Origin: Desulfocarbo indianensis
GTDB taxonomy: Bacteria > Desulfobacterota > Desulfarculia > Desulfarculales > Desulfarculaceae
Direction of reading: 5' to 3'
Assembly: GCA_001184205.1 (NCBI GenBank)
Contig: LBMP01000002.1
Coordinates: 452,726 to 516,725, forward strand
Length of the DNA stretch: 64,000 nt
Made by a program: the position numbers and the translations under genes. Positions 59,831 through 64,000 of this stretch are shown here, piece by piece. Numbering within the stretch: the stretch's first letter is position 1; the number at the start of each line of letters is the position of its first letter. Below the pieces are notes generated by a model. That model had not been told where the DNA came from. It saw only the letters and a program-made list of their open reading frames with translations, and searched no databases.

Positions 59831-60255
59831 GTGAACCCCAAGCCACCAGTGCTGGTCACCCGGCGGCTGCCCCAGCCCGTCATGGAGCTTTTGGCCGAAA
59901 GCTTCGATCTCGCCCTCAATCCCCACGAAGGCCCCATGCCCCGCCGGGAGTTGTTGGCCGCGGCCCGCGGCCAAAGCGGCCTCCTCACTCTTTTGGTGGA
60001 CCAGGTGGACGCGGAGCTTTTGGACGCGGCGGGCGGCTCCCTGCGGGCGGTGGCCAATTACGCGGTGGGCTACAACAACATCGATGTGGCCGCCGCCAGC
60101 CGGCGGGGGGTGGCGGTGTGCAACACCCCGGAGGTGCTCACCGACAGCACCGCGGACCTGGCCCTGATGAAGCCCTCAACCTGCGAGCCCTGCTTCTGGA
60201 AGAGCGCCGCCCGCCCGATGATTGCCTGAGTTGGGCTGAGCTGGCCGGGGTGTGA
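59831..60255 (+). pseudogene. D-2-hydroxyacid dehydrogenase with internal deletion
   Basis: The first 110 codons read as the N-terminal substrate domain of a glyoxylate/hydroxypyruvate-type reductase (VLVTRRLPQPVMELL, ANYAVGYNNIDVAAA, GVAVCNTPEVLTDSTADLAL). The match stops exactly where the NAD-binding domain should begin. The next bases, read from 60172 in another frame, give ALNLRALLLEERRPPDD, the normal C-terminal end of such enzymes, to a stop at 60255. So some 200 codons, including the Rossmann GxGxxG and the catalytic Arg/Glu/His, are gone. The frame as read ends at 60229. An assembly error is possible. Confidence 0.8.
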
Positions 60256-60262
60256 CGATTTG

Positions 60263-60291
60263 TTGACAGGACCGGCCGCTTGGGGTATTAA
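60263..60291 (+). promoter_or_regulatory. Strong sigma-70 promoter of the TRAP leader
   Basis: A perfect TTGACA (60263-60268), a 17-nt spacer and TATTAA (60286-60291). Transcription should start near 60298, giving a leader of about 220 nt before dctP. It lies just after the stop of the damaged dehydrogenase. Confidence 0.75.
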
Positions 60292-60344
60292 CTGCGGGTA
60301 GTTTAGTGGGGTGTTGGCGATCAACCAGGAAAACGAACCCGACA

Positions 60345-60401
60345 ATGTTCCAGAGCCGTCCCGCGTACGCTTATCTCTACTCCTATTATTACCGGCCCTA
60401 G
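60345..60401 (+). CDS. Tyr-rich leader peptide, probable attenuator
   Basis: An 18-codon frame, MFQSRPAYAYLYSYYYRP, followed by TAG. Six of 18 codons are Tyr (60366, 60372, 60378, 60384, 60387, 60390), three in a row at the end. AGGA lies 14 nt before the ATG, a long spacing. The last Tyr codon and the stop lie within the stem of the following terminator. This is the pattern of aromatic amino-acid leader peptides, where stalling on Tyr codons when Tyr-tRNA is short stops the terminator forming. The downstream genes encode a TRAP transporter, an unusual target. Confidence 0.6.
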   Translation: MFQSRPAYAYLYSYYYRP

Positions 60402-60418
60402 GCCGGTATCTATCTTTT
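60390..60418 (+). terminator. Attenuator terminator before dctP
   Basis: TACCGGCC (60390-60397) pairs with GGCCGGTA (60401-60408) around CTA and is followed by TCTATCTTTT. The 8-bp GC-rich stem with a U-rich tail reads as an intrinsic terminator about 100 nt before dctP and 110 nt after the predicted start site. Confidence 0.65.
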
Positions 60419-60517
60419 GCATAAATCCGCAATAGCACTCATGGCTCAAGGGAGCCCGCCGCGCCATTTCAACCTGAGCCCTGTAAAATACCTCCGTTTG
60501 CCCATGGAGTTGAAACG

Positions 60518-61540
60518 ATGAAACGCTTTATCTGCCTGTTGTCTATTTTCGCGCTTGCGGTTCTTTTCTCGGCCGCGCCGGCGGCCGCCGAAGACGCCGT
60601 CAAGCTGACCTACAGCAACTTTTTCCCCCCCACCCACGTGCAGTCCCAGTTGGCCGAAGCCTGGTGCAAGGAAGTGGAGAAACGCACCGGCGGCAAGGTC
60701 AAATTCCAGTATTTCGCCGGCCAGACCCTGACCAAGGCCCCGCAAAGCTATGACGGGGTGGTCACCGGCATCTGCGACGTGGCCATGAGCTGCTTCGCCT
60801 ACACCAGGGGCCGCTTCCCGGTGATGGAGGTGGTGGATCTGCCTTTGGGCTACACCTCGGGCGTGCAGGCCACCAAGGTGGTGAACGAAGTCTACAGCGC
60901 GCTGAAGCCCAAGGAGCTGATGGACACCAAGGTCATGTACCTGCACGCCCATGGGCCGGGCCTGCTGCACACCAAGGAAAAGCCCGTAAAGACCCTGGAG
61001 GACATGAAGGGCCTCAAGCTGCGGGCCCACGGCACCATCGCCGAGATGGTCAAGGCCCTGGGCGCCACCCCGGTCACCATGCCCATGCCCGACGTCTACC
61101 AGTCCCTGGAAAAGGGCGTGGTTGACGGCGCTTTCTATCCGGTGGAGGCCAACAAGGGCTGGAAGCTGGGCGAGGTGTCCCGTTTCTGCATCTTGAGCTA
61201 CCCGGCCGCCTACACCACCAGCTTCTTCGTGGTGATGAACCCGGACGTGTGGGCCAAGCTGCCGGCCGGCGTGCAGAAGACCATAGAGGAGATCAACCTG
61301 GAATGGGCCGCCAAGCACGGCAAGGCCTGGGACGAGTCCGACGCCAAGGGGCGCGAGTTCCTGCTCTCCCAGAAGGGGCGCCAGATCGTGGAATTGGCTC
61401 CCGGCCAGGACGCCAAGTGGCGGAAGGTGGTGGAGCCGGTGCTGGACGACTACGTCAAGAAGCTGAGCGAGCGGAAACTGGACGGCGCGGCGGCTCTGGC
61501 CGTGGCTAAAAAAGCCCTGGGCGCGGCCAGCGGGAGGTAA
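60518..61540 (+). CDS. dctP: TRAP transporter solute-binding protein
   Basis: A 340-residue periplasmic receptor with signal peptide MKRFICLLSIFALAVLFSAAPAAA. It follows the DctP family pattern: LTYSNFFPPTHVQSQLAEAWCKEVEKRTGGKV, then GLKLRAHGTIAEMVKALGATPV with the Arg that normally pairs with a substrate carboxylate. GGAG lies 8 nt before the ATG. It delivers an organic acid to DctQM. The leader suggests control by Tyr supply, so an aromatic acid such as an arylpyruvate is a possible ligand; that is inference. Confidence 0.92.
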   Translation: MKRFICLLSIFALAVLFSAAPAAAEDAVKLTYSNFFPPTHVQSQLAEAWCKEVEKRTGGKVKFQYFAGQTLTKAPQSYDGVVTGICDVAMSCFAYTRGRFPVMEVVDLPLGYTSGVQATKVVNEVYSALKPKELMDTKVMYLHAHGPGLLHTKEKPVKTLEDMKGLKLRAHGTIAEMVKALGATPVTMPMPDVYQSLEKGVVDGAFYPVEANKGWKLGEVSRFCILSYPAAYTTSFFVVMNPDVWAKLPAGVQKTIEEINLEWAAKHGKAWDESDAKGREFLLSQKGRQIVELAPGQDAKWRKVVEPVLDDYVKKLSERKLDGAAALAVAKKALGAASGR

Positions 61541-61545
61541 TTCCC

Positions 61546-62034
61546 ATGAGCGCCTTTGAGCGCCTGGTGAACCGCCTTTCGGCGGTCCTTAAATGGATCG
61601 GAGGCTTGAGCCTGGTGGGCATGATGCTCATCACCTGCCTGGACGTGGTGCTGCGGGCCGCGGGCCGGCCCCTGTACGGCCTGGTGGAGAGCGTTTCTCT
61701 CCTGGCCGTGCTGGTGCTGGCCGCGGCCCTGCCCATCACCCAGCGCGACCGGGGCCACGTGGCCCTGGACATGCTGATGCGCCGTTTCAGCGAGCGCACG
61801 GCGGCTTGGGTGGACGCCGCGGGTCAGGCCATTTGCTGCGGGCTTTTCCTCCTGGTGAGCTGGCAATGCTGGGATTACGCCGAACGCATGGCCCAGGCGG
61901 GCCAGGTTTCCCAGAGCCTGGAGCTTCCCGTGCATCTGCTGGTCAGGGCGGTGGCGGTGGCGTTCGCCGTGCTGTGCCTGGCCCTCCTGGCCGATATGGC
62001 CGCATCCTTGCGTAGGGCGGTGCGTAATGCTTAG
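61546..62034 (+). CDS. dctQ: TRAP transporter small membrane subunit
   Basis: A 162-residue protein with four hydrophobic helices, starting 5 nt after dctP. It has the family pattern MMLITCLDVVLRAAGRPL in helix 1-2 and ITQRDRGHVALDML in the loop. DctQ forms the membrane complex with DctM and helps dock the receptor. Confidence 0.9.
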   Translation: MSAFERLVNRLSAVLKWIGGLSLVGMMLITCLDVVLRAAGRPLYGLVESVSLLAVLVLAAALPITQRDRGHVALDMLMRRFSERTAAWVDAAGQAICCGLFLLVSWQCWDYAERMAQAGQVSQSLELPVHLLVRAVAVAFAVLCLALLADMAASLRRAVRNA

Positions 62035-63331
62035 CAACACCTTGGTAGGCGTCATCGGCATCGTTTTGCTGGTGGCGCTCTTCTTCTTGCGCATACCCGT
62101 GGCTTACGTCATGGCCCTGGTGGGTTTCGCCGGCTTCGCCTGGGTGCGGGGCCTGGACCCCGGCTTAAGCATTCTGGCCCGGGATATCTACGGGGTGTTT
62201 TCCTCCTACGGCCTCACCATCATACCCCTGTTCATCTTCATGGGGCATCTGGCCTATCACGCCGGCATCAGCCGCCGCCTGTACGACACGGCCTATAAAT
62301 TCACCGGCTCCACCAGGGGCGGCCTGGCCATGGCCACCATCTGCGCCTGCACCGCCTTCGGCGCGGTGTGCGGCTCCTCGCCGGCCACCGCCGCCACCAT
62401 GGCCACGGTGGGCCTGCCCGAGATGCGGCGCTACGGCTATCATCCCGAGCTGGCCACGGGCAGCGTGGCCTCGGGGGGCAGCATGGGCATGCTCATGCCG
62501 CCCAGCGTGGTGCTCATCGTTTACGGGGTGCTCACCGAGCAGTCCATCGGCCGGCTGTTCATGGCCGGCGTGGTCCCGGCGGTTTTCATCACCGCGCTTT
62601 TCATCGCGGCCATAGCCCTCATGTGCCGCTGGCGGCCGGAATTGGGCCCGGCGGGCCCGCGCCACAGCCTGCTCCAGAAGATGCAGTCGCTGTTCAACCT
62701 GATAGAGACCCTGGCCGTTTTTCTCCTGGTGATGGGAGGGCTCTTCCTGGGCTGGTTCACGCCCACCGAGGCCGGCGGGGTGGGGGCCATGGGGGTGCTG
62801 CTGGCCGCCCTGGCCCGGCGGCAGATATCCTGGGACGGCTTCTGGCGGGCGGTGGTGGATAGCCTGCGCACCTCCTGCATGGTGCTTTTCCTGGTGGCCG
62901 GTGCGGTGATTTTCGGCCACTTCTTGGCGGTCACCGGCATACCCATGGCCGTGGCCGAGGCTATCAGCGGCTTGGACCTGCCGGGCTGGGCGGTTATTTT
63001 CCTCATGGTGCTGGTGTATCTCCTGGGCGGCTGCTTCATAGACGCCCTGGCCCTCATCATGCTCACCATCCCCATCTTCTATCCCATCGTGCTGCGCCTG
63101 GGCTACGATCCCATCTGGTTCGGGGTCATCATCGTGCTGGTCACCCAGATGGGGGTCATCACCCCGCCGGTGGGCATCAACGCCTACGTGGTGAAAGGGG
63201 TGGACACCAGGACTCCCCTGGAGACCATTTTCAAGGGCTGCCTGCCCTTTTTGGGCGCGCTCCTGGCCGGCACCGTGGCCCTGGTTTTCGTGCCGGAGCT
63301 GGTGCTCTGGCTGCCCCGCCTGATGTACTAA
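62027..63331 (+). CDS. dctM: TRAP transporter large membrane subunit
   Basis: A 434-residue, roughly twelve-helix ion-coupled transporter that moves the solute using a sodium or proton gradient. Family motifs include IIPLFIFMGHLAYHAGIS, GAVCGSSPATAATMATVGLPEM, MLMPPSVVLIVYGVLTE and TQMGVITPPVGINAYVV. It overlaps dctQ by 8 nt and ends the operon. Confidence 0.94.
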   Translation: MLSNTLVGVIGIVLLVALFFLRIPVAYVMALVGFAGFAWVRGLDPGLSILARDIYGVFSSYGLTIIPLFIFMGHLAYHAGISRRLYDTAYKFTGSTRGGLAMATICACTAFGAVCGSSPATAATMATVGLPEMRRYGYHPELATGSVASGGSMGMLMPPSVVLIVYGVLTEQSIGRLFMAGVVPAVFITALFIAAIALMCRWRPELGPAGPRHSLLQKMQSLFNLIETLAVFLLVMGGLFLGWFTPTEAGGVGAMGVLLAALARRQISWDGFWRAVVDSLRTSCMVLFLVAGAVIFGHFLAVTGIPMAVAEAISGLDLPGWAVIFLMVLVYLLGGCFIDALALIMLTIPIFYPIVLRLGYDPIWFGVIIVLVTQMGVITPPVGINAYVVKGVDTRTPLETIFKGCLPFLGALLAGTVALVFVPELVLWLPRLMY

Positions 63332-63531: not shown

Positions 63532-64000
63532 ATGACCACCCTTGTGCTGGCGGTGAGCGTATCCATCGTGGTTTCAGCCTTGTGCTCGCTCTTGGAATCG
63601 GTGCTTTACTCCACCAGGGTCATAACCCTGGAGGCGGCGGCCCATGGGGGGGTCGCCGTGGCCCAGCAGATGAAGCGCCTCAAGGCCGAGGTGGATAAGC
63701 CCCTGGCCGCCATCCTGATCCTGAACACCTTGGCCAACACCGCCGGCGCTTCCCTGGCCGGCTGGGCCGCGGGCCAGATCTGGGGAGCCGGCTCCCTGTG
63801 GGCCTTCTCCCTGTTCTTCACCCTGGCCATCCTGATTTTTTCGGAGATCATTCCCAAGACCGTGGGCGCGGTCTATTGGCGCTATCTGTGGAAAGGCTCG
63901 GTCAAGCCGCTCAGGATAATGGTGATCGCGGTGATGCCGGTCATCTGGCTGACCCAACTCCTCACCCGGCTCATAACCAGGGGCAGGCCCAAGACCCCCA
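63532..64000 (+). CDS. CNNM (DUF21)-domain membrane protein, 3'-partial
   Basis: The first 156 residues of a protein running off the window. It has three or four hydrophobic segments and the CNNM-type features: an N-terminal helix with ESVLYSTRVITLEA, ILILNTLANTAGASLAG and SEIIPKTVGAVYW. CNNM/CorC proteins are linked to magnesium or cobalt transport and usually carry CBS and CorC domains further on, which would lie outside the window. GGAGG lies 4 nt before ATG 63532. Confidence 0.85.
   Translation, partial: MTTLVLAVSVSIVVSALCSLLESVLYSTRVITLEAAAHGGVAVAQQMKRLKAEVDKPLAAILILNTLANTAGASLAGWAAGQIWGAGSLWAFSLFFTLAILIFSEIIPKTVGAVYWRYLWKGSVKPLRIMVIAVMPVIWLTQLLTRLITRGRPKTP

Follow-up and report, generated by a model that had tools for sequence, protein, structure and literature searches.

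Why should a short open reading frame in which a third of the codons specify tyrosine, and which runs into an RNA hairpin at its end, stand in front of a TRAP transporter operon? The question is raised by a locus of Desulfocarbo indianensis (G000, Desulfarculaceae) lying in the window, which is the whole stretch of 64,000 nucleotides analysed here (contig LBMP01000002.1, positions 452,726 to 516,725). An earlier note had described at this locus a TTGACA-N17-TATTAA promoter, an 18-codon frame with six Tyr codons, and a hairpin with its 5′ arm beginning at the last Tyr codon and with a U-rich tail. Each of these parts is present. The element and the operon that follows it comprise, in window coordinates:

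60263–60291, + strand: sigma-70-type promoter TTGACA-N17-TATTAA, read in the sequence (-35 at 60263–60268, -10 at 60286–60291)
60327–60330, + strand: Shine-Dalgarno-like AGGA, 14 nt 5′ of the leader ATG, a longer spacing than usual
60345–60401, + strand: leader frame MFQSRPAYAYLYSYYYRP, ATG at 60345 and stop TAG at 60401, six Tyr in 18 codons
60390–60408, + strand: 8-bp hairpin TACCGGCC-CTA-GGCCGGTA, spanning the last Tyr codon, Arg, Pro and the stop
60409–60418, + strand: U-rich tail UCUAUCUUUU, which makes the hairpin resemble an intrinsic terminator
60419–60517, + strand: spacer to dctP, with GGAG at 60506–60509 as the dctP Shine-Dalgarno sequence
60518–61540, + strand: dctP, TRAP solute-binding protein of the TarP-like aromatic-acid cluster (Pfam PF03480; nearest solved structures)
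61546–62034, + strand: dctQ, TRAP small permease (PF04290)
62027–63331, + strand: dctM, TRAP large permease (PF06808, TIGR00786)
63532–64000, + strand: start of a CNNM/CBS membrane protein (PF01595 and PF00571; gene order)

The consensus promoter scan demands T as the last base of the -10 element and so does not list the TATTAA promoter; the corresponding place in most relatives carries TTGNNN-N17/18-TGNTA. The long spacing ahead of the leader ATG also recurs at approximately 14–17 nt in most relatives, where GGAG lies 15–17 nt 5′ of that codon. The hairpin forms 8 pairs with a stability of -14.1 kcal/mol when the local segment is folded, and five of the six Tyr codons lie upstream of its 5′ arm. 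One Tyr-rich frame (8–40 codons, at least six Tyr) occurs in the window, versus none in 60 dinucleotide-preserving shuffles. Terminator-like hairpins are commoner, two being found in 3 kb against 2.9 expected, and so the hairpin alone is within chance; its conserved position at the frame end in relatives exceeds chance. Directly 5′ of the leader promoter, at 59831–60255, lies a remnant of a D-2-hydroxyacid dehydrogenase gene, in which the N-terminal ~112 residues match up to a frame shift, and what looks like the C-terminal tail is read in a different frame; this is probably a pseudogene with its middle deleted.

The earlier note would have given up its reading had relatives kept neither the Tyr codons nor the hairpin, but a search of homologous dctP upstream regions found both kept, at the same locus in four genera. 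A pattern search of 98 relatives returned the Tyr frame in four other genomes of the same family, each time 5′ of a dctP, and a scan upstream of dctP orthologues, which is independent of that pattern, added homologous frames that the pattern had missed. Counting the window copy, 11 of 20 Desulfarculaceae genomes carry the homologous frame and hairpin. When Tyr codons and hairpin are combined in a covariance model, it finds one strong site per genome in all 11 carriers, always 5′ of dctP at this locus, although it was built from members that it then found, and its E-values for those members are not independent; the independent evidence is therefore the dctP-orthologue scan. With the same model, the 43 remaining genomes of the class gave no convincing site and ~395 sampled genomes of the phylum no true site; a weak match in that sample (G248, E 0.0025) falls in Tyr-rich coding sequence and is not a leader. 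Upstream of 77 of 80 DctP relatives a convincing site is likewise absent, and the other three belong to the Desulfarculaceae carriers counted above. Two matches to the first pattern (L004 and L005) are without a leader-like frame and were taken as chance. Ten leaders are intact, the window copy and the following nine, each closed by a stop codon:

G010: MVSSASHSVRAYAYVYCYYYRPPRG
G019: MVSNASHSVRTYAYVYCYYYRPPRG
G017: MASNAAHSVRAYAYVYCYHYRPPRG
G012: MASNASYSVRAYAYVYCYDYRPPRG
G004: MSNSISHSSPAQAYLYSYDYRPPRG
G008: MARTASHSAHAQAYLYSCDYRPPRG, with three Tyr codons only
G013: MTSRTSDNAVRAYSYAYYYRPSGR
G015: MLSQPAANLYYAYAYYYRPSGR
G003: MNNASLHNCLCLYRYYYYYQPLGG

The eleventh copy (G011, locus L037) has a TAG inside the leader, and the adjoining dctP lacks its N-terminal part, as if leader and gene had decayed together.

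The pattern of constraint differs along the element. When Tyr positions are numbered from the last Tyr codon as 0, Tyr is invariant at -6, -4 and 0 in the ten intact leaders and present at -2 in nine of them, giving a strict every-second-residue register that continues up to a C-terminal [RQ]P. The residues interleaved between the conserved tyrosines vary, TAT and TAC switch synonymously, and either 0 or 3 residues follow RP, which makes the C-terminal tail variable in length. Within the hairpin, compensatory changes replace U-A by C-G in the window copy and G-U or G-C by A-U in G003, where Arg becomes Gln. Because Tyr is invariant despite codon switching while the hairpin pairing is kept, the upstream codons are constrained as tyrosine and the frame end as RNA. 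A column-shuffle control on the ten-row hairpin alignment, in which loops were padded by N, gave 31 of 500 and is not decisive by itself. Across the whole frame in six aligned genomes of one genus (g4), third codon positions change less often than first and second positions taken together; since changes are thus not concentrated at third positions, the coding constraint is local to the Tyr positions and the hairpin.

The earlier note had seen no separate antiterminator pairing, and single folds and RNAalifold on the leaders agree, finding no mutually exclusive antiterminator. No Rfam family matches 60100–60700 at E≤1, and a T-box or other known RNA family was rejected on that ground. In genus g4 (L013, L014, L016, L017, L018 and L028), the ribosome-binding region of the leader pairs with the Tyr-codon region in a helix of -19 to -22 kcal/mol, an energy attained by 0–2.7% of shuffles of the 5′ region. 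This helix covaries, in that each of two g4 sub-types pairs with itself better than with the other. It is strong only in these six genomes and absent from folds of the window and other genera, and so was rejected as a conserved switch in favor of a lineage-specific feature that may restrict leader translation to the first ribosome.

The presumed termination signal downstream of the hairpin is where the relatives diverge. A terminator with a U-rich tail is plausible for the window, where the hairpin and tail can, by their sequence, act as an intrinsic terminator, but the tail does not extend to most of the family: among the relatives only G013 has such a tail, perhaps also forming an intrinsic terminator, and the other eight intact leaders are without one. 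All nine intact relatives, G013 included, have a C-rich, G-poor tract of 60 nt after the leader stop, resembling a Rho site. This segment ranks among the most C-rich and G-poor 0.006–0.4% of context windows in those genomes and is mostly unpaired in folds, whereas the D. indianensis copy ranks at 6% and is without such a tract. The property that the U tail and the C-rich tract would have in common is a capacity to end transcription, alone or with Rho.

The earlier guess of an aromatic substrate gains support from the kinship of DctP with TarP-type proteins. Structurally, DctP (AlphaFold model, mean pLDDT 88) is most like 4n6d, 4nap and the TarP group. Its top 15 matches, all TarP-type or close kin, have Z scores of 32–38, and other TRAP proteins score 29.8 and below. 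Several, perhaps many, of the titles among these 15 name caffeate, ferulate, coumarate, cinnamate, 4-hydroxyphenylacetate or “aromatic acid” ligands, and 4pgn/4pgp and 4nap (Dde_0634) were reportedly solved with indolepyruvate, indoleacetate and D-tryptophan. Sequence searches agree that the closest solved relatives are aromatic-acid-binding TRAP proteins, and the carboxylate-binding arginine, R169, is invariant. The transporter thus probably imports aromatic acids. Because DctP relatives without a leader belong to the same TarP-like subfamily, this kinship supports, without proving, a tyrosine-related substrate. The genome also encodes indolepyruvate oxidoreductase alpha homologues (one above the curated cut-off) and a TyrA domain, and therefore aryl-acid salvage and tyrosine synthesis are both plausible.

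The leader-bearing DctPs do not form one clade but comprise a main group of nine and a pair (G015 and G011) in another DctP lineage, and the leader label requires two changes on the DctP tree against a shuffled mean of 10. The leader has remained at its locus even next to divergent binding proteins. L024 and L037 share the leader and the locus but have a DctP of a different lineage, and there a new binding protein may have taken the place of the old one without loss of the leader. A CNNM/CBS gene follows dctPQM both in the window (63532–64000) and at L074, L076, L077 and L081, and this order holds in relatives where contigs allow, with Pfam checks in five genomes; at L076 and L077 a pyridine nucleotide-disulphide oxidoreductase gene comes next. 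Pfam annotation recognised no catabolic genes in the dctPQM operon.

Taken with the conservation of the Tyr codons and hairpin in front of dctP, the kinship of DctP with aromatic-acid binders lends good support to reading these sequences as an attenuator that acts in cis through Tyr codons on an importer of aromatic acids, and the element most likely tunes uptake to the speed at which tyrosine codons are read. The leader frame would be translated close behind RNA polymerase, and the hairpin, built from the last Tyr-Arg-Pro-stop codons, would sit where transcription can end 5′ of dctPQM, by intrinsic termination at the U tail in the window and possibly, in relatives, through Rho loading on their C-rich tract. 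Formation of the hairpin, and hence transcription of the importer, would then depend on where the ribosome stands on the last Tyr codons, with Tyr-tRNA charging as the presumed signal. Slow decoding of those codons under moderate tyrosine shortage would raise expression, and the imported aromatic acids could be converted to tyrosine. This account as a whole, including its favored direction, is considered rather probable. Counted against it are the lack of a conserved antiterminator, the missing U tail in most relatives, the presence of only three Tyr codons in G008, the division of leader-bearing DctPs over two lineages and the excess of first- and second-position changes in the g4 alignment.

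Given that no antiterminator is conserved, covering the hairpin would be the way left for the ribosome to act, and in E. coli a terminator placed close behind a gene is reported to be repressed almost fully (PMC4824070). If the ribosome's leading edge is put ~12 nt beyond the first A-site base, stalls at -2, -1 and 0 cover the hairpin whereas stalls at -8, -6 and -4 leave it free. The proposal that a stalled ribosome masks the terminator stem would accordingly apply to the last codons but not to the earlier ones. That low Tyr-tRNA, rather than sufficiency or a nascent-peptide signal, lets transcription reach dctPQM is a candidate reading only, in that stalls at the first Tyr codons miss the hairpin and the sign of the effect depends on polymerase pausing: in a toy model, Tyr limitation clearly raises readthrough only with a polymerase pause of ~3 s or more, and lowers it when there is no pause. 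Because of that dependence, the direction of control cannot be read from the sequence. The sign in which moderate tyrosine shortage raises expression is slightly favored, since the genes recognised in the operon serve transport and none of them catabolism.

The opposite sign defines the alternative that survives best, a coupling attenuator like those of pyrBI and pyrE, in which plentiful Tyr-tRNA would let the ribosome keep pace, cover the hairpin and permit synthesis of the importer, and shortage would let the polymerase run ahead and terminate. The frame does run into the hairpin, with most of its Tyr codons ahead of the 5′ arm and no antiterminator seen, and the toy model yields precisely this sign when the polymerase does not pause. 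The E. coli finding on terminators close behind a gene (PMC4824070) counts in its favor too. This sign also hinges on the pause length, however, and importing aromatic acids under plentiful tyrosine needs a catabolic use for them, for which the operon contains no recognised gene. It is regarded as unlikely.

Conceivably, the peptide rather than the tRNA is the sensor. One version, which we hold to be doubtful, treats the frame and hairpin as a modular leader coupled to an intrinsic terminator (in the window, perhaps in G013) or to a Rho-loading tract (in the other relatives), with the alternating-Tyr nascent peptide itself perhaps sensing imported aromatic acid instead of tRNA charging. Another, of similarly doubtful standing or slightly lower, is an arrest peptide like TnaC, SpeFL or MdtU: a nascent YxYxYxYRP would bind an aromatic ligand in the tunnel, the ribosome would halt near the stop and block Rho loading, and the substrate would thereby induce its own importer. 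The strict alternation of Tyr up to [RQ]P and the C-rich, G-poor tract directly after the stop in nine relatives suit such a device, as does the distance of 100–143 nt from leader stop to gene; this is near the geometry of mdtU-mdtJI, where the mdtU stop precedes the AUG by 106 nt and the operon is subject to Rho termination (PMC7815308). A tRNA sensor fits the Tyr codons equally, however, and the C-rich tract is missing from the window copy. The varying C-terminal tail fits an arrest peptide poorly, and the Arg-to-Gln change in G003, with its compensating base change, suggests that this residue may serve RNA pairing instead of the peptide.

That the hairpin merely pauses polymerase or protects an RNA end, with the frame incidental or encoding a small protein and no control by Tyr decoding, is improbable: the hairpin is indeed the strongest common structure, and the attenuator is deduced from sequence, but against this stand Tyr positions that four genera keep unchanged while their codons switch synonymously, a Tyr content far above chance and the strict tie to one operon. 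A chance arrangement is virtually excluded by conservation, since chance alone would give the region some terminator-like hairpins, but the element occupies the same place in 10 further genomes and the shuffles yielded no such frame.

If the preferred attenuator reading is correct, no TRAP transporter under the control of a leader peptide was, to our knowledge, described before; in sulphate reducers the uptake of aromatic acids would be tied to the decoding of tyrosine, and an otherwise uncharacterised importer would gain a substrate clue. A literature search, limited in reach, returned no described Tyr leader on a TRAP operon, as the earlier note had supposed. The Tyr T-box leaders of Firmicutes are also tyrosine-responsive and can precede transporters, but they sense tRNA directly by RNA, and the window leader (60100–60700) has no Rfam match. 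In the pyrBI and pyrE coupling attenuators, a translated frame runs into a terminator hairpin that is blocked by a closely following ribosome. The Tyr frame likewise runs into a hairpin that a close ribosome could block, but no nucleotide-sensing U-rich pause region is recognised, and Tyr codons would set the ribosome speed. With the Rho-dependent tnaC, speFL and mdtU systems the element shares a stop ~100 nt 5′ of the gene, an unpaired C-rich tract in relatives and a transport-linked operon; it has no visible homology to those peptides, and the window copy bears a U tail rather than a C-rich tract. TarPQM provides the closest solved relatives of DctP, and its substrate arginine, Arg168 of the TarP preprotein (PMC3610893), is conserved here as R169, although identity is ~30% and TarPQM of R. 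palustris is controlled by the regulator CouR (PMC3610893), with no leader described there. Finally, like the trp-, his- and pheA-type attenuators, the element combines a short frame rich in the codons of one amino acid, an RNA structure over the end of that frame and a termination signal 5′ of the structural genes. It differs from them in that no antiterminator was found, in controlling a transporter, in having Tyr as the sole repeated codon and in a termination signal that is a U tail in some relatives and a C-rich tract in others. If the attenuator reading holds, this variation within one family would mean that attenuators can swap the termination engine and keep the sensor.
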